This document shows, in pieces, positions 1-6,839 of a DNA stretch of 6,839 bases. Numbering within the stretch: the stretch's first letter is position 1; every line of letters begins with the position of its first letter. Below the pieces are notes generated by a model. That model was given only the letters and a program-made list of their open reading frames with translations, did not search any database and had not been told where the DNA came from. The position numbers and the translations under genes were made by a program. The stretch is from Candidatus Omnitrophota bacterium (GTDB lineage: Bacteria; Omnitrophota; Koll11; Gygaellales; JAHJCI01): assembly GCA_030622705.1 (NCBI GenBank), contig JAUXFU010000046.1:1-6839 (forward strand), given 5' to 3'.

Positions 1-173
1 ATAAATCCAGTCCTCCCCAGAATACGCTGAATCGGCACACCTCGAAACCGCCTCTGCAAGGCATCCGCCACAAAAGGGGATTCCTTTTGTGTAAGAATAC
101 GCCCCTTATTTAGATATAACTGATGCAGGGGGCAATTTAACAATTCAGTAAATAACAATTCGCCTTCAGTCAT
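1..173 (-). CDS. prmC: Peptide chain release factor N5-glutamine methyltransferase PrmC (HemK), N-terminal 57 codons, cut by the window edge
   Basis: The visible residues contain the patterns ELLFTELLNCPLHQLYLN and GVPIQRILGRTGF. These match the helical N-terminal substrate-binding domain of PrmC; the usual family form of the second is GEPxQYIxGxxEF. The methyltransferase domain with its NPPY motif lies off the left edge. In the family, PrmC uses S-adenosylmethionine to methylate the Gln of the GGQ motif of RF1/RF2 in the cytoplasm. Its position directly downstream of prfA fits this, since prfA encodes its substrate. The ATG at 171-173 is chosen because an in-frame stop lies seven codons upstream (six sense codons between) and no other ATG is available. 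No Shine-Dalgarno is visible before it. The N-terminus looks about 20 residues shorter than E. coli PrmC. The 174-208 spacer holds nothing I can name. Confidence 0.85.
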   Translation of the reverse strand, partial: MTEGELLFTELLNCPLHQLYLNKGRILTQKESPFVADALQRRFRGVPIQRILGRTGF

Positions 174-208
174 GTTTAGGTAATTTAGAAACTATACTCT
201 TTTATCTT

Positions 209-372
209 AACCACAAGACTACACGAGATTTTAAAAAGCATTAAACCACAGAGGACACTGAGGCTAAAGAGAGAATACAGAGATTTTTAAAGGTTTAAAA
301 AATACTCTGTGTCCTCTCATCTATCTCTGTGACTCTGTGGTTAAGAATTTCTTTGAAATAAATCTTGTGGTT
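209..372. repeat. Palindromic intergenic element, family 1, copy A
   Basis: A 164-bp element bounded by AACCACAAGA (209-218) and its complement TCTTGTGGTT (363-372). It contains a nested imperfect palindrome of about 99 bp (244-342) with ends AACCACAGAG and CTCTGTGGTT, converging on a TTTAAA-rich centre. It is nearly identical to the reverse complement of 1423-1584; the differences I see in the core are a few substitutions and one 1-base indel, with a larger difference at the ends. The end of prfA reads into it, so it encodes the last 16 RF1 residues and the stop. It encodes no protein of its own and no clear target-site duplication is seen. It looks like a MITE- or REP-type element, but the mobility mechanism is inferred. 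Confidence 0.85.
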
Positions 373-1415
373 TCATTTTCTCTCTTAATCAAAGCGGCGG
401 AAATCTCATCCAGGTTCCCTTCCAGGATTGACTCTAATTTATGCAAAGTCAAATTAATTCTATGATCGGTAACCCGGTGATCAGGAAAATTATAAGTCCG
501 GACCTTCTCGCTTCGCTCACCCGTACCAACCTGAGATTTACGGTCCTGTGAAATCTTTTTTTCCTCCTGTTGCCTCAACCCATCCATAAGCCTGGCCCCC
601 AGAACCCTTAATGCCTTGATTTTATTCTTAAGCTGTGACCGCTCATCCTGGCAGGTAACCACTATTCCTGTAGGTAAATGCGTAATTCTTACTGCCGAAT
701 CGGTAGTATTAACGCTTTGGCCGCCATGACCAGAGGAACGGAATACGTCAGTCTTTAAATCCTTTGAATTTATCTGAAATTCCGTATTTTTCGGCTCAAC
801 CAGTACCGCTACGGTAGCAGCTGAGGTATGAATCCGCCCTTGCGTCTCGGTCGCAGGAATACGCTGTACACGATGGACGCCACTTTCCCATCTAAGATAC
901 TGATATGCCTGCTTTCCGCGAATGCTAAAAATAACCTCTTTAAATCCTCCTAATTCTGTCGAATGCAAAGAAAGCATTTCGCTTGTCCAACCTCGTTTTT
1001 GCGCATATTTAGTGTACATCCTGTATAGATTTGCGACAAATAAACTTGCTTCCTGACCGCCAGTTCCGGCACGAATCTCAACAATGATATTCTTATCCTT
1101 TTCCTCTGTGCCCTTATTAATCTTCTGATCAATCTTGTTTATTATTCCCTCATTCCTTGTCTTTAAATCTTTAATCTCGCTTTCCACAAGCATTAGGAAT
1201 TCATTATCATGTTTTTCCTTTAAGGTTACCTCTAACTTAACAATCTCGGATTTAGATTGTTTAAACTGGCGATACAAAAATACTATCTCGGAAATCCCGG
1301 ATATCTCCTTAACATACTGGTTATACTGAATTTTATGAGAAATTATTTCGGGGAGAACCAGCAAACTCTCTAACTCCTCATATCGCTTTTCTATTTTCTC
1401 TAATTCCTCGAACAT
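321..1415 (-). CDS. prfA: Peptide chain release factor 1 (RF1)
   Basis: RF1 recognises UAA and UAG in the ribosomal A site and triggers peptidyl-tRNA hydrolysis. The 364-residue protein has the expected length. It has an N-terminal coiled-coil domain (about 1-110), the codon-recognition motif PAT at 187-189 inside RIPATETQGRIHTSAATVAV, and the catalytic GGQ at 231-233 within SSGHGGQSVNTTDSAVR. A PAT rather than SPF tripeptide makes it RF1, not RF2. Gln233 is the expected target of PrmC, encoded next. The start at 1413-1415 gives the canonical MFEELEKIEKRYEELE. No Shine-Dalgarno precedes it: a family 1 repeat ends about 7 bases upstream, leaving only an A-run. The last 16 residues (TTRFISKKFLTTESQR) and the UAG stop are encoded by another copy of the same repeat. 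UAG is a stop read only by RF1 itself. Confidence 0.97.
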   Translation of the reverse strand: MFEELEKIEKRYEELESLLVLPEIISHKIQYNQYVKEISGISEIVFLYRQFKQSKSEIVKLEVTLKEKHDNEFLMLVESEIKDLKTRNEGIINKIDQKINKGTEEKDKNIIVEIRAGTGGQEASLFVANLYRMYTKYAQKRGWTSEMLSLHSTELGGFKEVIFSIRGKQAYQYLRWESGVHRVQRIPATETQGRIHTSAATVAVLVEPKNTEFQINSKDLKTDVFRSSGHGGQSVNTTDSAVRITHLPTGIVVTCQDERSQLKNKIKALRVLGARLMDGLRQQEEKKISQDRKSQVGTGERSEKVRTYNFPDHRVTDHRINLTLHKLESILEGNLDEISAALIKRENETTRFISKKFLTTESQR

Positions 1416-1422
1416 TTTTTTA

Positions 1423-1584
1423 AACCACGAGATTACACAAGATTTATTTTAAAGAAATTCTTAACCACAGAGTCACAAAGATAGATGAGAGGTCACAGAG
1501 TATTTTTTAAACCTTTAAAAATCTCTGTGTTCTCTTTGAGTCTCAGTGTTCTCTGTGGTTTATGCTTTTTAAAATCTTATGGTT
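1423..1584. repeat. Palindromic intergenic element, family 1, copy B (inverted relative to copy A)
   Basis: A 162-bp element filling almost the entire gap between rpmE and prfA. It begins with AACCACGAGA (1423-1432), ends with TCTTATGGTT (1575-1584), and has an inner imperfect palindrome at 1463-1560. Its reverse complement aligns along most of its length with 209-372. The right end abuts the rpmE UGA stop (1585-1587). The left end stops about 7 bases before the prfA start codon and leaves no room for a standard ribosome binding site. Compared with copy A, one end carries an extra short unit (AACCACGAGATTACACAAG against AACCACAAG), so end units vary between copies. Confidence 0.85.
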
Positions 1585-1797
1585 TCATTTTTTAACATTT
1601 GATTTGCCGTATTTCTTCATAAATTTCTCTACCCTGCCTGCAGAATCAACAAATTTCTGCTTACCGGTAAAGAAAGGATGGCAATTAGAACAAATCTCCA
1701 CGCGAATACTTGGTTTTGTTGAACGCGTATGAATCGTATTCCCGCAAGCACAAACAATTGCGCAACTTTGATATTTAGGGTGAATTTTGTCTTTCAT
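1585..1797 (-). CDS. rpmE: 50S ribosomal protein L31, zinc-binding (C+) type
   Basis: A 70-residue protein with the L31 signature: [10 protein letters not shown] at the start, [12 protein letters not shown] in the middle, and [20 protein letters not shown] near the end. Four cysteines (C16, C18, C36, C39) occupy the zinc-ligand positions, so this is the C+ form rather than the zinc-independent paralog type. L31 is a large-subunit protein at the subunit interface. The ATG at 1795-1797 is chosen over longer in-frame TTG options because GGAGG sits seven bases upstream and the family begins with MKxxIHPxY. The gene lies between rho and prfA, a frequent bacterial neighbourhood. Its UGA stop directly touches repeat copy B. 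Cys12 is an additional cysteine not assigned to the zinc site. Confidence 0.97.
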
Positions 1798-1803
1798 AGA
1801 TTT

Positions 1804-1809
1804 ACCTCC
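1804..1809 (-). promoter_or_regulatory. Shine-Dalgarno of rpmE
   Basis: The sense strand reads GGAGGT, with seven bases between GGAGG and the ATG at 1797. This decides the rpmE start against upstream in-frame codons. The site lies at the edge of repeat copy C, and the motif GTGGAGG is shared with copy D in front of rho. Confidence 0.85.
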
Positions 1810-1920
1810 ACTTGCAACCGCGGAATCACGGAATTGCAATCACGGAAACACGGAAAATTATTATCCGCGCCTCCGTGAAACTTACGGCTTTAATTCTCTG
1901 TTCCGTGTCTCCGTAGTTAC
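1805..1920 (-). repeat. Palindromic intergenic element, family 2, copy C (rho to rpmE gap)
   Basis: A 116-bp unit that aligns without gaps to 3180-3295 at a constant offset of 1375, with 16 mismatches by hand count (about 86% identity). On the sense strand it begins with GTAAC, whose TAA is the rho stop codon, and ends in the rpmE Shine-Dalgarno, so it spans the whole intercistronic gap. The ends are mutually complementary (GTAACTACGGAGACACGGAA with GCAACCGCGGAATCACGGAA, 15 of 20 identical) and enclose an inner hairpin at 1841-1877. It is rich in CACGGA/TCCGTG units and encodes no protein. Confidence 0.85.
1841..1877 (-). other. RNA hairpin inside family 2 copy C
   Basis: The sense-strand arms CACGGAGGCGCGGA and TCCGTGTTTCCGTG form 14 pairs around a 9-base loop (TAATAATTT). 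Three of the pairs are G-U, so the stem is complete only in RNA of the minus (coding) strand. No U-tract follows, so this is not a standard intrinsic terminator. A role in mRNA processing or stability is inference. Confidence 0.65.
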
Positions 1921-3173
1921 TGGTTCATACTATTTAGAAAATCATCATTATTCTTAGTTTGAGATAACTTATCAATCAATAATTCCATTGCCTCAACATT
2001 ATTTAATTCATTAAGCACCTTCCTTAATATCCAGATCTTCTGTAAGTTGTCTGGCGGAACCAATAATTCTTCGTGACGGGTGTTAGATCTTTTGATATCG
2101 ATTGCCGGATAAATCCTCCTTTGAAATAAATTTCTATCCAACTGCAGCTCCATATTACCGGTGCCTTTGAATTCTTCAAAAATGACATCATCCATACGGC
2201 TACCCGTATCAACAAGCGCAGTAGCAATAATAGTTAAACTCCCTCCTTCTTCGATAGCGCGTGCCGCACCAAAAAATCTTTTTGGCTTCTGAAGGGCATT
2301 CGAATCCACCCCTCCGGAAAGCACCTTACCACTATGAGGAATAACAGCGTTGTAAGCACGGGCAAGACGAGTAATACTATCTAATAATATCACCACATCC
2401 CTTTTATGTTCTACTAATCTTCTTGCCTTCTCCAAAACAATCTCAGCCACTTGAATATGCCTCTCGGGAGGCTCATCGAAAGTCGAAGAAATAACCTCCC
2501 CTTTAACATTACGCTGCATATCAGTAACCTCTTCCGGCCTCTCATCAATAAGCAGCACGATAAGAAAAACATCAGGCTGATTATGGACTATGGCGTTACC
2601 TATCTTCTGAAGCAAAACCGTCTTCCCGCTATAGGGCGGAGCAACGATTAAACTACGCTGCCCGCAACCAATAGGCGTAAGCAAATCCATAATCCGGCAG
2701 GATACATCCTTAGACTTTGCTTCCAGCAGAAAACGCTTACGCGGATATACCGGCGTAAGATTATCAAACAAAATCTTTTCTTTAGATTCATCAGGATGCG
2801 CAAAATTGACTGCCTCTATCTTAAGCAGCGCAAAATATTTCTCACCCTCCTTAGGCGGCCTGATTTGTCCACTGACCGTATCGCCTGTTTTTAAATCAAA
2901 TTTTCTTATCTGAGAAGGAGAAATATAGACATCGTCGGGACAAGGTAAATAATTATAATTCGTAGATCTGAGGAATCCAAATCCCTCCGACAGAACCTCT
3001 AATATCCCCTCGCCAAACATCAAACCCTCCTTCTCTGCCTGGGCCTGAAGAATCTTAAACATAAGATCCTGTTTCCTTAGTCCGCTTACACCATTAATCC
3101 CTAATTGCCTGGCTAACTTACCAAGCTGGTCAATCTTCATCTGTTTTAAATTTCCGATATCTAATTTTTCCAT
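1917..3173 (-). CDS. rho: Transcription termination factor Rho
   Basis: Rho is a hexameric RNA-dependent ATPase that terminates transcription. The 418-residue protein is almost the length of E. coli Rho (419) and aligns with the same numbering. It has an N-terminal helical domain (1-50), an OB-fold RNA-binding domain (about 52-125, with GFGFLRS and [16 protein letters not shown]) and a RecA-like motor domain. Motor features are the P-loop APPYSGKT at 178-185 with K184, [14 protein letters not shown] at 208-221, Walker [17 protein letters not shown] around 260-275, and the Q/R-loop region [21 protein letters not shown]. Residues D210, R212, S266 and G337, which contact bicyclomycin in E. coli, are present. 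Unusual points are Tyr at 181 where E. coli has Lys, and CGQR instead of RGQR just before. The ATG at 3171-3173 follows GGAGG with a 6-base spacer. The UAA stop lies inside repeat copy C, and direct repeats C and D bracket the gene. Confidence 0.98.
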
Positions 3174-3179
3174 CTTCTC

Positions 3180-3184
3180 CCTCC
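3180..3184 (-). promoter_or_regulatory. Shine-Dalgarno of rho
   Basis: GGAGG on the sense strand, six bases before the rho ATG. It lies at the downstream edge of repeat copy D. The GTGGAGG context is identical to the one in front of rpmE, which suggests the ribosome binding site was copied together with the element. Confidence 0.8.
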
Positions 3185-3215
3185 ACCTGTAACGACGGAA
3201 TCACGGAATTGCAAC

Positions 3216-3252
3216 CACGGAAACACGGAAGATTATTATCCGTGTTTCCGTG
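3216..3252 (-). other. Perfect 14-bp hairpin inside family 2 copy D
   Basis: The + strand arms CACGGAAACACGGA (3216-3229) and TCCGTGTTTCCGTG (3239-3252) are exact inverted repeats around a 9-base loop. The coaE UAA stop (3236-3238) is in the loop. No T-tract follows on the sense strand, so I do not call a Rho-independent terminator. Confidence 0.8.
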
Positions 3253-3922
3253 AAACTTGTTGCTTTAATTTCCTGTTCCGTGCCTCCGTGGTTACAATCT
3301 TGCTCCAGATACTCTTCACCTGTTTCTGAGTTTGACTTTTTCTACCACTATTATCAATTACAAAATCGGCAAGTTTAATTTTATCATTTTGCGATAACTG
3401 AACGTTTAGCCTCCTATTTACTTCATCATTTGTTAAACCACTTTTCTTTAATCTTCGTATTTGGATTTTGGGTTCACATTTAACTACTATTAATTTATCA
3501 ATCCAGGATAACATTCCCCCGCGCCAATTGGGATTTAAACCCCGCTGTTTCAATAATTGGCATGAGGATAAACTCAACTCAATCAATAAAGCAGCATCTA
3601 TAATCAGAACTCGATTGCCGGATACCTCTGTTATTATGCCTCTTATTATTTTCAAAATGTAAGGATGCATAATTTTATTAAGTCTTTTTAATTTGAGTTT
3701 ATCAAAAAACACCTCCCGGGCTAAACTCTTGCGGCTTATATAAGAACCCCGAAGAATCCCTTTACCAAAAGCAATTATGATTTGCTTATAAACAACGCTG
3801 CCCGGATGAATAATCCTATGGCCAATCTCATCCGCATCGATTATCCGCGCTCCTAACCTGTGAAACATTTTACTAACAGTAGTTTTACCGACGCCAAGAT
3901 TGCCTGTTACTCCGATAACCAT
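3236..3922 (-). CDS. coaE: Dephospho-CoA kinase, with internal insertion and repeat-derived C-terminus
   Basis: CoaE phosphorylates the 3'-hydroxyl of dephospho-CoA with ATP, the last step of CoA synthesis. Supporting motifs are the P-loop GNLGVGKT at 7-14 (Thr instead of the usual Ser), IIDADEIGH at 27-35, the MHP motif at 85-87, DAALLIE at 109-115 (usual form DxPLLFE), and ADFVIDNSG at 185-193. The start at 3920-3922 gives MVIGVTGNLG, the family beginning; an upstream in-frame TTG is not preferred. No clear Shine-Dalgarno is seen. About 20 extra residues (near 118-138, containing RGLNPNWRGGML) separate DAALLIEL from WIDKLIVV, where the family normally has only a few. Residues 210-228 (VTTEARNRKLKQQVSRKHG) are encoded by repeat copy D. 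The domain assignment is firm; whether the variant is fully active is open. Confidence 0.93.
   Translation of the reverse strand: MVIGVTGNLGVGKTTVSKMFHRLGARIIDADEIGHRIIHPGSVVYKQIIIAFGKGILRGSYISRKSLAREVFFDKLKLKRLNKIMHPYILKIIRGIITEVSGNRVLIIDAALLIELSLSSCQLLKQRGLNPNWRGGMLSWIDKLIVVKCEPKIQIRRLKKSGLTNDEVNRRLNVQLSQNDKIKLADFVIDNSGRKSQTQKQVKSIWSKIVTTEARNRKLKQQVSRKHG
3523..3561 (-). repeat. Inverted repeat inside the coaE insertion
   Basis: GCCAATT (3523-3529) and AATTGGC (3555-3561) are perfect 7-bp arms. They enclose a near-palindromic GGGATTTAAACCCC. The segment is locally more GC-rich than its surroundings and coincides with the extra residues in CoaE. A small palindromic insertion that stayed in frame would explain it; this is inference. 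Confidence 0.5.
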
Positions 3923-4023
3923 CTGTAGAACTAATGTGTTAACCAATCAAATAGTGACCGTGTTAGCTGTACTATTATATTCTCAAAAGCATAACGCGCT
4001 AACCCGCCAACACGATAACTAAT
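3923..4023. repeat. glgA-coaE gap with degenerate inverted repeat, possible third element family
   Basis: The 101-bp gap contains several variants of a GTGTTAGC-like word: CTAATGTGTTAACC at 3931-3944, CGTGTTAGC near 3959-3967, CGCGCTAACC near 3995-4004 and CCAACACG near 4007-4014. The last two are in opposite orientation to the first two, so the segment is a loose palindrome. The style resembles the other intergenic elements, but the word differs and there is no second copy in the window. No promoter or terminator is clear. Confidence 0.35.
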
Positions 4024-5412
4024 TTAGTTTTTTATTAGCTTTTTATAAAGCTGAATGTATTTCTTTGCTGACTCCTGCCAGAAGAAATTAGCCTTCATTC
4101 CTTTTTTAATCTTTTCCTGCCATCTCTTTTTATCCCGATAACACAATAACGCTTTCTTTATCGCATCAACCAAAGCAAAACAGGTATACCCATCAATGAT
4201 AAATCCGTTCTTGTGGTTTATTGTATCAGCCAGACCGCCGGTTTTATACACTAAGGGTATAGTCCCATATTTTAAACTGATCATCTGACCCAACCCACAG
4301 GGCTCAAACTTCGAAGGCATAAGAAAAATATCCGAACCGGCGTATATCTTATGAGCTAACTGATTATCAAATTTAAGATAGAGGCAAAATACATTAGGAT
4401 ATTTTTTGCTTTTCTGCTTTAATAGTTTATGGTATTTCTCGTCGCCGGTTCCTAAAATTACCAATTGCAGATTTAATTTACAAATTTCATCAATGGCTTC
4501 GGCAAGAATATCCAATCCTTTCTGCTCGGCCAGTCGAGAAACCATACCAAATACAGGTATTTTGCGCTCTATGTTTAATCCGCAGATCTTCTGCAAGTCC
4601 TGTTTATTTTTGTATTTGTCTTTTAGATTCTTAATGTTATACTTGGCGGCAATAAACTTATCGATCGAAGGATCCCAAACAGAATAATCTAATCCGTTTA
4701 ATATCCCGGATAAACAATCCCGCCGCTTAAATAATACCCCCTCTAATCCACACCCAAAATCGGATGTCTGAATCTGTGCTGCGTAGGTAGGACTAACCGT
4801 GTTTACGCAATCGGAAAAAACAATCCCGCCCTTTAAAGTATTAACCTTACCGTAAAACTCCAGCTCTTCCATATTAAAAATTGACCAATCCAATTTCAAC
4901 TTAGGAAATTCTTCGTATGCAAATATACCTTGATACGCCAGATTATGTATGGTAAGCAAAGTTCTGCAATTCTTATAGAACGGATCCGAGTGAAACTTTT
5001 TCTTAAGATAAACAGGGATATAAGATGCCTGCCAGTCATGAATGTGAATTATGTCAGGCTTGAAATTAATTCGCTTAAGTAATTCCAGGCACTGCCGGCA
5101 AAAGAAAGAGAATCTTTCTATATTATCGGGATAATCCCCTTTACGGTCGCTATAAAGACCGGCGCGATTAAAGTATTTATCATTCTGAATAAAATAAACT
5201 TTAATTTTTCCCTCAAGTTTTGTTGATAGAACTCCGGGGAACAACCTCTTATTCTTTATTTTGGATAATGCGGCCTTCTTATAAAATGGCATCAAAACAA
5301 TAACCTCGTGTTTAAGCTTTTCTAAGGCTAAAGGTAAAGCTCCTGCCACATCTGCCAAGCCTCCGGTTTTAGCGAAAGGCACAACCTCTGAAGCACATAT
5401 TACTATCTTCAT
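4024..5412 (-). CDS. glgA: Glycogen synthase (ADP-glucose type, GT5)
   Basis: GlgA transfers glucose from ADP-glucose to the non-reducing end of an alpha-1,4-glucan. The 462-residue protein has both Rossmann halves of the GT5 family. N-terminal features are KTGGLADV (K15, nucleotide-sugar binding), HDW at 125-127 and HNLAYQG at 156-162. NGLD is at 239-242. C-terminal features are VSRLAEQKGLD at 291-301 (R293, K298), PSKFEPCGLGQ at 366-376 (E370, C372) and a second KTGGL at 390-394. All catalytic positions I can check are present. The ATG at 5410-5412 is chosen because MKIVICASEVVPFAKTGG is the family start and AAGGAAGG lies six bases before it; an ATG six codons upstream has no good binding site. 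The start overlaps the stop of the tiny ORF at 5409-5477. The neighbours are replication, CoA and gene-expression genes, not glycogen genes. Confidence 0.96.
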   Translation of the reverse strand: MKIVICASEVVPFAKTGGLADVAGALPLALEKLKHEVIVLMPFYKKAALSKIKNKRLFPGVLSTKLEGKIKVYFIQNDKYFNRAGLYSDRKGDYPDNIERFSFFCRQCLELLKRINFKPDIIHIHDWQASYIPVYLKKKFHSDPFYKNCRTLLTIHNLAYQGIFAYEEFPKLKLDWSIFNMEELEFYGKVNTLKGGIVFSDCVNTVSPTYAAQIQTSDFGCGLEGVLFKRRDCLSGILNGLDYSVWDPSIDKFIAAKYNIKNLKDKYKNKQDLQKICGLNIERKIPVFGMVSRLAEQKGLDILAEAIDEICKLNLQLVILGTGDEKYHKLLKQKSKKYPNVFCLYLKFDNQLAHKIYAGSDIFLMPSKFEPCGLGQMISLKYGTIPLVYKTGGLADTINHKNGFIIDGYTCFALVDAIKKALLCYRDKKRWQEKIKKGMKANFFWQESAKKYIQLYKKLIKN

Positions 5413-5477
5413 CCCGCACCTTCCTTCCATTTAACCCGCATCTTTCTTATCTTCATTAATATAACTGCGGGATTCAT
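5409..5477 (-). CDS. Candidate 22-residue ORF between polA and glgA
   Basis: The ATG at 5475-5477 overlaps the polA stop as ATGA, and is preceded by AGGAGGTTAA, the strongest Shine-Dalgarno-like sequence in the window. The 22 codons start MNPAVILMKIRK, are rich in Lys/Arg in the middle, and end in a TGA that overlaps the glgA start codon as ATGA. The ORF therefore exactly bridges the two genes with a 4-base overlap at each end. I recognise no family. It could be a leader peptide that couples glgA translation to polA, a small basic protein, or a chance ORF using the end of polA as its binding site. Confidence 0.4.
   Translation of the reverse strand: MNPAVILMKIRKMRVKWKEGAG
5411..5473 (-). promoter_or_regulatory. 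Mutually exclusive pairings around the glgA start
   Basis: On the sense strand ATCCCGCA (5473-5466, just inside the tiny ORF) is complementary to TGCGGGAT (5418-5411), which includes the AT of the glgA start codon. The same CCCGCA can instead pair with TGCGGG at 5440-5435. The two pairings exclude each other. This could hide or expose the glgA start depending on ribosome passage over the tiny ORF. The complementarity is visible; the regulatory role is inferred. Confidence 0.35.
5419..5426 (-). promoter_or_regulatory. Shine-Dalgarno of glgA
   Basis: AAGGAAGG on the sense strand, with six bases to the ATG at 5412. It supports that start over the in-frame ATG at 5430. Confidence 0.6.
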
Positions 5478-6839
5478 TTAACCTCCTGCATCTCTAACCA
5501 GTTCTTCCCTTTTTTAATCACTACCTTTATCGGAACGCTAAAAACGAAACATTCTTCCATCCTCTGACGGACTAATCTGATAAGCAGGCCTAACTCCGTT
5601 TCAGGTACTTCAAAAACAAGCTCATCATGAATCTGCAAAATGAGCTTTGATTTCAGATTCTGTCTTCGTATCTGGCAATGAATCTCAACCATTGCTTTTT
5701 TTATAAGGTCGGCGGCTGAACCTTGTATCGGCGTATTTACTGCCTGCCTTTCGGCAAATTGCCGCATTCCCTGATTTCTGCTGTTAATCTCCGGGATATA
5801 CCTTCTTCGTCCCAAAATTGTCGTAACATACCCGTCATTCCTTGCCCTGTCAATTTGATTCTGGATATAATCTTTAACCTCAGGATACCTCTGGAAATAT
5901 GCTTCGATAAAGTTATCTGCTTCTTCATGAGAAACCCCTAAATCCCGGCTCAAACCAAAACTGCTCAGACCATAAATAATCCCGAAATTAATTCTCTTGG
6001 CCACCTCGCGCATTTCTTCGCTGATATCTTTTTGGTCTAATCCATAAATTAAACAGGCAGTAGCAATATGGATATCCTGATTATTCTTAAAAGCCTCGAT
6101 AAGCCGAGAATCACAAGACAAATGCGCCAAAATCCTTAACTCTATCTGCGAATAATCAAAAGACACAAGAAAATAATCACCCCCAGAAAGAACTATCGCC
6201 TTCCTAATCTGCCGGCCAATCTCTCCTCTTATGGGAAGATTCTGCAAGTTAGGATTCGAAGAACTCAGTCTTCCGGTTTGCGTACCCGTCTGATTAAACG
6301 AGGCGTGGATTCTGCCGGATTTTGAATCAACCAATAAAGGCAGAGTATCAATATATGTAGATTTTATCTTCATGAGTTTTCGATATTCAAGTAATATTAC
6401 AGGAAGACGATGCTGCTGGGCAAGCCTGTTGAGCACCTCTTCGTCTGTTGAGGGTCCGCTTTTGGTTTTCTTTACAACAGGCAACTTTAATTCTTCAAAT
6501 AAAATACTTCTTAATTGCTTAGGCGAATTAATATTAAACTCCCTGCCGGAAAAACGATAAATTGATTCTACCAGTTTAGTTAACTGTTGTTGAACCTGTA
6601 AAGATAATGATTTAAGGAAATCTAAATTCAGCGCCACGCCGGTTAGCTCCATATTAGCAAGCACCTCTATTAGAGGCATCTCAAGGTCAAAGAAAAGCTC
6701 ATCCAACCCATTCTGATGCATCTCTTTTTCCAAAACACTCTTCAATCTGAATATTAACTGGCACGCCATATCCTGTTGCAAACCCTGTTCATTGAATACC
6801 TCTTTAAAATAATCCCAGGCTAAGTCAGTCAACTTATAA
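5474..6839 (-). CDS. polA: DNA polymerase I, C-terminal part with complete polymerase domain; 5' end beyond the window
   Basis: The frame is open to the right edge, so the gene start and the 5'-nuclease and exonuclease-like regions are missing. The visible ~455 residues cover the end of the 3'-5' exonuclease-like domain (before LEMPLIEVL) and the whole family A polymerase. Residue numbers count from codon 6830-6832. Template/primer contacts include TQTGRLSSSNPNLQNLPIR. Motif A is DYSQIELRILAHLS with catalytic D226. Motif B is R275-K279-F283-Y287-G288 in the RxxxKxxxFGxxYG pattern. Motif C is QIHDELVFEVPE with H402, D403 and E404. All are intact. The C-terminus, KKGKNWLEMQEVK, follows the family. 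The enzyme fills gaps in repair and replaces Okazaki primers. The exonuclease III motif (YxxxD) is not recognisable near residue 20, which hints that proofreading is lost. The UGA stop overlaps the next tiny ORF. Confidence 0.97.
   Translation of the reverse strand, partial: YKLTDLAWDYFKEVFNEQGLQQDMACQLIFRLKSVLEKEMHQNGLDELFFDLEMPLIEVLANMELTGVALNLDFLKSLSLQVQQQLTKLVESIYRFSGREFNINSPKQLRSILFEELKLPVVKKTKSGPSTDEEVLNRLAQQHRLPVILLEYRKLMKIKSTYIDTLPLLVDSKSGRIHASFNQTGTQTGRLSSSNPNLQNLPIRGEIGRQIRKAIVLSGGDYFLVSFDYSQIELRILAHLSCDSRLIEAFKNNQDIHIATACLIYGLDQKDISEEMREVAKRINFGIIYGLSSFGLSRDLGVSHEEADNFIEAYFQRYPEVKDYIQNQIDRARNDGYVTTILGRRRYIPEINSRNQGMRQFAERQAVNTPIQGSAADLIKKAMVEIHCQIRRQNLKSKLILQIHDELVFEVPETELGLLIRLVRQRMEECFVFSVPIKVVIKKGKNWLEMQEVK

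Follow-up and report, generated by a model that had tools for sequence, protein, structure and literature searches.

Introduction

Among described bacterial repeats, the closest to those analyzed here are ERIC (also IRU or RU-1) and YPAL (RU-2), which excerpts of PMC2229807 present as multicopy, hairpin-forming and mainly intergenic sequences of ~100-200 bp. The same excerpts report filled and empty sites for YPAL, and that YPAL might affect the stability of upstream transcripts. According to an excerpt of PMC2759123, an RU-1 copy at a gene 3′ end appears to have replaced the normal stop codon, and it codes for a C-terminal tail. Here we analyze a stretch of 6,839 nucleotides from an uncultured Omnitrophota bacterium (contig JAUXFU010000046.1, positions 1 to 6,839; hereafter the window), a minus-strand operon polA-glgA-coaE-rho-rpmE-prfA in which palindromic repeats occupy four consecutive gaps: coaE/rho, rho/rpmE, rpmE/prfA, and the gap after prfA. 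These repeats are similar in size to ERIC and YPAL, they form hairpins, they have filled and empty sites, and they code for protein tails. Unlike ERIC, they have arms made of octamer words and an Omnitrophota host. For one of their two families, a 116-bp unit, a BLAST search in distant mode (E 1e-5) through 20,395 E. coli records also gave no match, and it is this genome search that sets the unit apart from ERIC.

Other systems share some of these features. REPs, given as 20-40 bp long in the excerpted sources, carry a GTAG or CGTC tag, and GTAG REPs provide TAG stops (PMC3733652); a passage in PMC12306157, citing an earlier study, reports that REPs within 15 nt of a stop codon stall ribosomes. 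REPs are high-copy palindromes near gene ends. The window repeats are also palindromes near gene ends, but they are longer (116-170 bp), and by reading we find no GTAG or CGTC tag conserved between copies. Heptamer arrays of TAACTGA, a 7-bp intergenic word, have a patchy spread across Beggiatoaceae, Cyanobacteria and Bacteroidetes (excerpts of PMC4679880). They are direct repeats, and in those excerpts most of the Beggiatoaceae ones immediately precede start codons, whereas the words in the window form both arms of a hairpin. Finally, excerpts on Geobacter describe palindromic families and 6-42-nt direct repeats between the genes of G. bemidjiensis, of which most have no equivalent in two relatives (PMC2996986), and a G. 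metallireducens family with four heptanucleotide repeats (PMC2700814). These multicopy intergenic sequences of Geobacter are similar in kind to the window repeats; they may or may not be identical in sequence to the ACCACRGAG family that we discuss below.

We consider it probable that the window repeats are non-autonomous palindromes similar to miniature inverted-repeat transposable elements (MITEs), that two families of them multiplied in this genome, and that purifying selection placed them. Their position at gene ends is probably almost the only harmless place in a tight operon. Each copy would be a hairpin with ends made of short repeated words (of the ACCACGGA type, or ACCACAGAG within ACCACRAGA). 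Insertions would land at many sites and those inside genes would be lost, leaving as tolerated sites only the final codons that a gene can spare and the short stretch that precedes the ribosome-binding site of its neighbor. When an insertion removes the native end of a gene, the repeat would supply a short tail and a stop. Stop replacement is on record for RU-1/ERIC and for GTAG REPs, and the window is an example of this known phenomenon.

Palindromic repeats at four gene ends

The 116-bp palindrome is present in the coaE/rho gap (3180-3295 on the minus strand, feature drawn to 3298) and in the rho/rpmE gap (1805-1920, minus strand, feature drawn 1804..1919). The two copies are 86% identical and in the same orientation, and they extend to the ribosome-binding sites of rho and rpmE, respectively. 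An earlier note, made from the sequence of the window alone, had described one shared unit that runs from the upstream stop codon to the downstream Shine-Dalgarno sequence. The shared unit and its downstream reach stand, and so does the upstream limit for rho, where the TAA stop (1917-1919) forms the opening codon of the repeat. The limit does not hold for coaE, whose TAA stop (3236-3238) lies ~57 bp inside the repeat, such that the last 19 residues of the protein (VTTEARNRKLKQQVSRKHG) are repeat-coded.

The second family is a palindrome of ~170 bp. Copy B (~1420-1589, minus strand), in the rpmE/prfA gap, has outer ACCACRAGA arms that enclose inner ACCACAGAG arms, and the rpmE TGA stop (1585-1587) is at its edge, as the earlier note had seen. 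Copy A (~205-374, minus strand), in the gap after prfA, is inverted with respect to copy B, and the two are 94% alike over 144 nt. Copy A contains the prfA TAG stop (321-323) ~51 bp inside, and the last 17 residues of PrfA (ETTRFISKKFLTTESQR) are repeat-coded. Thus, two of the four gene ends (rho and rpmE) are within a few bases of the edge of an element, as had been claimed for all four, and the other two (coaE and prfA) are inside one. The two families have no cross-match to each other, in agreement with the view that they differ; the word style they were said to share is real but loose. In all, two copies of each family occur within ~3.1 kb.

The four repeats fold far better than their shuffled versions, with hairpin z-scores of -8.0 (coaE/rho), -4.7 (rho/rpmE), -5.6 (rpmE/prfA) and -6.9 (after prfA). 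For each of them, none of 200 shuffles folded as well. This places stems of -44 to -59 kcal/mol at or around four stop codons. Could they be intrinsic terminators? We reject that candidate: on the coding strand, none of the four repeats has a GC-rich hairpin followed by a T run. One match inside them is on the opposite strand (1873-1887), and the window as a whole has 4 terminator-like sites versus 6.0 in shuffles. Given the lack of a terminator-like site on the coding strand, transcription through the repeats is plausible. Rfam has no match in the window at gathering threshold.

The genes themselves, all on the minus strand, are coaE (3236..3919, with PF01121 homologues), rho (1917..3173, 85% identical to Omnitrophota Rho), rpmE (1585..1797) and prfA (321..1415). 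After prfA there is the start of a putative gene that we take to be prmC, from the usual gene order and from the sequence. In both 116-bp copies the word GTGGAGG falls within the match, as a candidate ribosome-binding site carried by the repeat, although both downstream genes require a site of this kind and could have acquired it independently. The glgA/coaE gap has another palindrome (3952-4021, minus strand), with 16-nt arms that are 81% alike, octamer words CGNGTTAN and a word period of 8 (z 3.5). It folds weakly, with a hairpin z of only -0.9, and it is probably a decayed third family.

The same junctions in relatives

We compared the operon in 8 Omnitrophota loci and in 40 genomes of one order; one of the 48 loci (L130) is without rho. 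In relatives these junctions are short or overlapping, and some are filled (see below). Of 34 parsed loci, 16 have a 13-nt overlap of coaE with the start of rho. Genes glgA and coaE overlap in 35 of 43, where glgA/coaE values near 1,370-1,400 nt are parsing errors. The rpmE/prfA gap is of 28 nt or less in 29 of 43 parsed loci, and three of the long values (212, 196 and 385 nt in L115, L142 and L147) contain rpmE itself. The rho/rpmE gap is called as <40 nt in 19 of 41, one of them (L122) wrongly; the values of L122 and L117 begin at false starts.

These junctions include pairs in which the same gap is filled in one genome and empty in another. In L153, one gap has 92 nt with a word palindrome, versus 9 nt for the same gap in L143, with rho DNA 91.5% identical. 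In L125 there are 191 nt versus 20 nt in L119, with rho DNA 85.1% identical. The L153/L143 pair concerns another family than those of the window, and all these empty-site comparisons are between genomes above strain level. The search for empty sites that the earlier note had called for thus returned them, and with the repeat-coded tails described next they support the view that the elements are inserted.

Several relatives have, in the same operon gaps, palindromes quite unlike those of the window. The word is GCGTATA in L001 and TGTCAAAG in L118; two gaps of L125 have words of the AAATYCA type (with related ones in L132 and L147), and L153 has AGCGTATA and AGCTTATA words. As a separate observation, the polA/glgA gap of L153 (72 nt) is filled by a near-perfect, word-like hairpin (z -8.4) with GTAGAC/GTCTAC words. 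Another palindrome, approximately AATTCGC...ACTTACG...CGTAAGT...GCTCATT, recurs in Omnitrophota, in these operon gaps of L001, L005, L116, L137, L140, L145 and L149, and in several cases it is preceded by a CCCGCC/GGCGGG hairpin.

The C-terminal tail of CoaE provides a second view of insertion. Among the 30 CoaE sequences nearest to that of the window, two have a repeat-coded C-terminus at the same position: P0001, with 91% identity, and P0002, with 63%. The other 28 do not have a repeat-coded tail, and many of them end in GG.KW.., which from the sequences we read as the stretch that overlaps rho. In a tree built with the tails trimmed, P0002 and P0006 form a group (99/99) that excludes the window CoaE and P0001, and P0006 keeps the usual overlapping tail without the repeat. 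Because P0002 pairs with P0006, at least two changes are needed to explain the tails: either two insertions hit one spot, or P0006 lost the repeat precisely. This spot, which the last conserved residues of CoaE and the ribosome-binding site of rho delimit, is a few nucleotides to a few codons wide. The PrfA tail of the window is absent from all 41 closest listed PrfA homologues (P0122-P0162), in a search whose scoring was restricted to the 8000 candidates with the most words in common.

Genome-wide placement in two model genomes

To look at placement in numbers, we use two model genomes of the same order, G110 and G114, with multicopy families that are unrelated in sequence to those of the window. 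The G110 family is a 130-bp palindrome, AATGACAAATGACAAAATTC...TTTGACATT (L125/G110, loci L174-L203). We scored 40 of 138 first-look candidates and mapped 30; at least 5 further copies exist. One of the 40 scored copies served as the query, and the other 39 are 81-89% identical to it. For G114 we mapped 27 copies, after removing one of 28 loci as a duplicate. Other word families differ in copy number, with few copies in G388 and G423, and mostly partial matches in G071.

None of the 57 mapped copies is inside a gene (0/30 in G110 and 0/27 in G114), when ~90% of the G110 sample is coding. As called, 48 of the 57 lie between codirectional genes, and the gaps are tandem, convergent and divergent in 26, 3 and 1 cases for G110, and in 22, 4 and 1 for G114. 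Genes were called by length of the open reading frame (ORF), so that starts are rough (a score of GC content at third codon positions was added only for the set of Acidobacteria relatives below), and the caller misread rpmE beside L174 and L190 in G110, and beside L210 in G114. L174 is the supposed divergent copy of G110. Corrected for this, the counts become 28/2/0 of 30 and 23/3/1 of 27.

Divergent gaps amount to 20% of intergenic bases and 9.4% of gaps in the G110 sample, and these frequencies were used for G114 as well. As called, the avoidance of divergent gaps has P 0.010 and 0.018 (G110 and G114) relative to bases, and 0.22 and 0.27 relative to gap counts. With the corrected 0/30, G110 gives P 0.0012 and 0.053, respectively. 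These values give weak to moderate evidence that copies prefer gene 3′ ends to divergent gaps, and avoidance of promoters would give the same shortage.

Within codirectional gaps the two genomes differ. G110 copies are uniformly distributed (mean relative position 0.47, P 0.30). G114 copies are close to the stop, 16 of 18 codirectional ones being within 12 nt of it (P <1e-4 versus uniform), and the rest of the gap (median 17 nt) is roughly as long as a ribosome-binding site with its spacer. Short gaps, together with protection of the next ribosome-binding site, can explain why copies are close to stops. The mapping of copies relative to genes, which had been proposed for the whole genome and which we did in these relatives, therefore supports stop-proximity for G114 and not for G110. 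Repeat ends do not in general provide stops in all three frames, a rule that we considered and rejected. The number of frames (of 3) closed by stops within ~25 nt of the ends is 1.73 on the left and 1.37 on the right for G110, and only 0.89 and 0.67 for G114. Random 28-mers give 0.95, a value that the G110 ends exceed and the G114 ends do not.

These results bear on the proposal that insertion is targeted to stop-codon sequences (TGA|AACCAC, TAACCAC). The stop-proximity in G114, the near absence of copies from divergent gaps in both genomes, and the presence of the repeat at the same residue in the window CoaE, P0001 and P0002 are what targeting would give. But the uniform distribution in G110 is not; the coaE repeat replaces the usual tail instead of following the stop; the TAA word also belongs to repeat ends away from genes; and convergent gaps are used in G110 and G114, as are both convergent and divergent ones in other hosts. 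We regard targeting as very unlikely, and it is not needed to explain the placement. The companion argument, that random insertion could not hit the ends of four genes in a row, is not supported, because the ancestral gaps are very short. In a tight operon the tolerated space is tiny, so tolerated insertions must lie near stops. Five copies in nearly consecutive gaps, as in the window, are also found in one G110 operon (L156, 9.1-15.2 kb).

Orientation raises a different question. In codirectional gaps, the orientation of the G110 copies agrees with that of the genes in 23 of 25 cases (P 2e-5), and that of the G114 copies in 11 of 18. Could the hairpins be kept as elements of the mRNA? As described for REPs, a strong stem at or just after the stop would slow terminating ribosomes, uncouple translation, or keep 3′ exonucleases off the part of the transcript that precedes it. 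The stable stems at the four stops of the window, the plausible read-through, the G110 bias and the ribosome stalling reported in the excerpt on REPs (PMC12306157) all fit such a role. However, the ~170-bp family is present in both orientations in the window, the G114 ratio is 11:7, and relatives have these gaps either empty or occupied by something unrelated. Nor does the forward strand fold better in G110 (mean of -34.0 vs. -35.8), though it does in G114 (-33.0 vs. -26.0), so that stability of the mRNA strand, having no consistent sign, is discarded as the cause of the bias. Overall a role in the mRNA seems unlikely to us. As to the intercistronic cassettes suggested in the earlier note, the 23:2 bias would fit them, while the two orientations of the ~170-bp family speak otherwise.

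Word architecture and distribution of the repeats

The arms of these palindromes are built of tandem words. Of 13 word-like sequences, from unrelated families, 11 have arms that repeat every 7 or 8 bp (z 3.3-7.0); the word-like relatives in this set were picked by eye beforehand. The 116-bp copies have period 8, with z 3.3 (coaE/rho) and 4.1 (rho/rpmE), and the two misses are the ~170-bp copies of the window, with no significant word period. For nine other hairpins of the same gaps, the best lag is never 7 or 8, and two of them exceed z 3, with best lags of 4 or 11. The two arms of the ACCACRGAG family agree at the outer R letters and their Y counterparts in 49 of 57 copies versus 29 in shuffled ones, which may reflect two subfamilies; the N between words shows no such agreement (29 versus 23.7, P 0.085). 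In genome G493 (L484-L500) there are nested shells, with outer CACGAAG words, inner CACAGAG words, and then GC-rich hairpins, mirrored (L484, L486, L490).

One reading of such regularities is that the palindromes form where they stand, as template switching and slippage duplicate a short word in the two arms, and that they multiply through recombination or gene conversion without a transposase. The 7- or 8-bp period in unrelated families, the R/Y matching of the arms, the nested shells with different words, and the local clustering of G110 copies are in favor. On the other side, full-length G110 copies with defined ends are found at unlinked sites, ACCACRGAG ends are found in genomes of at least four phyla, and the arm matching may be just the trace of two subfamilies. 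Origin in place is, in our judgment, quite unlikely. A broader proposal would make the word palindromes a distinct, widespread class of prokaryotic repeats, made of tandem 7-8-bp words, at times in nested shells, by a process of hairpin copying or homogenization rather than by an ordinary transposase, and recurring at the same operon gaps across lineages. The word would then change as a block between families: CACAGAG, CACGGAG, CACGAAG; GCGTATA; AAATYCA; TGTCAAAG. We offer this as a tentative idea, rather unlikely to be right. Of transposition as the process by which the copies multiplied, we infer that it is the better account.

How far do the words extend? With one mismatch allowed, AACCACRGAGNCACRGAG is found in 12 of 384 Omnitrophota genomes, nine of which have it once; the backwards control is found in one of 384 (G171, 4 matches). 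Of 13 such sites inspected, five are clear palindromes (L083, L084, L088, L090, L092), and some look like ordinary sequence. At L092 (genome G057), a tandem array of GAAAACA-type heptamers adjoins a ACCACAGAG palindrome. Exact matches occur in 4 of 50 genomes from other phyla (Acidobacteria L018, Nitrospirae L041 and L049, and Myxococcota L043), a set that covers 50 of the 72 non-Omnitrophota loci of a Rho search, and the backwards control has none. In those four genomes, 27 of 30 loci were mapped.

The motif is also in at least 120 stretches of viral contigs (IMG/VR L276-L395), some of which are pieces of one contig; they may be true viruses, proviruses or host contamination. Scanning 80 of these stretches, we set aside 53 matches without a partner arm within 280 nt and one at an edge, skipped matches <60 nt from a counted one, and mapped 42 copies. 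Among 60 relatives of the Acidobacteria genome, the triple word is present in 17 and the backwards control in four (G482, G487, G498, G501), presumably, as in G171, because long arrays contain the backwards pattern. The 20 copies examined there are tandem (8), convergent (5), divergent (4), inside ORFs (2) or unclear (1). By raw counts, with 4 divergent of 17 classified, we see no sign of a 3′-end preference in this group.

No match was found for one copy of each window family in plasmid collections, nor for the ~170-bp family, the only one compared, in phage collections. In the main texts of the literature searched, the tandem words, as 15-nt strings, were not found, and the listed matches to the 9-nt words look unrelated by title. 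For repeats in Omnitrophota, nothing was relevant by title among the matches listed.

Candidates for a mobilizing enzyme

The linkage test covered Y1 transposases, the RAYT type that flanks GTAG REPs. Of 18 order-level genomes, 17 have such genes, and many of the carriers had not been selected for having a palindrome. Unlike RAYT-flanking GTAG REPs, the copies in the genomes tested have no adjoining Y1 gene. A scan of Y1 loci gave one match with 3 mismatches (L446), with a control rate of 1 in 62.6 kb, and there is no family copy beside the three Y1 loci examined in G110 and G114 (L259, L261, L274). Mobilization in the manner of RAYT and REPs is thus not supported in the genomes tested, which are other than the window's own.

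Discussion

Judged by the features that identify MITEs, the window repeats are short (116-170 bp) and non-coding, with terminal inverted repeats in that their ends are complementary in the folds. Empty sites are provided by the short or overlapping junctions, the CoaE tails, and the L153/L143 pair. As for high copy number, the window has two copies per family in 6.8 kb, and the analogous families of G110 and G114 are multicopy.

Several observations weigh against insertion followed by selection. The placement statistics come from families whose sequences are unrelated to those of the window. The 23:2 orientation bias of G110 is not predicted by simple selection, and its best 40 copies cluster, with 6 in 24 kb versus 0.6 expected (~0.003 after correction). 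The tail of P0002 could also reflect one ancient insertion and a precise loss in P0006. By rough calls, 6 of the 27 mapped other-phylum copies and 6 of the 42 viral-contig copies fall in ORFs, as do two of the 20 in the Acidobacteria relatives. Around 28 Y1 loci in 8 motif-bearing genomes there is no convincing copy within ~1.5 kb (less at contig ends), and 2 of 10 motif-bearing genomes have no Y1 match. Finally, the bases before CCACRGAG differ between hosts, without a fixed dinucleotide; the flank sets were partly fetched with patterns that fix the preceding A.

With these points in the balance, MITE-like insertion and purifying selection remain our preferred explanation, and we infer selection, rather than targeting, as the cause of the placement. 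Adjacency to a stop codon should then not be mistaken for targeting: where operons are compact, selection can by itself confine mobile hairpins to the stop, and there they rewrite the C-termini of proteins. The ACCACRGAG repeats are patchy in at least four phyla, and naming the enzyme that mobilizes them is a concrete problem. The word architecture of period 7 or 8, in several unrelated families, would inform how such palindromes form.

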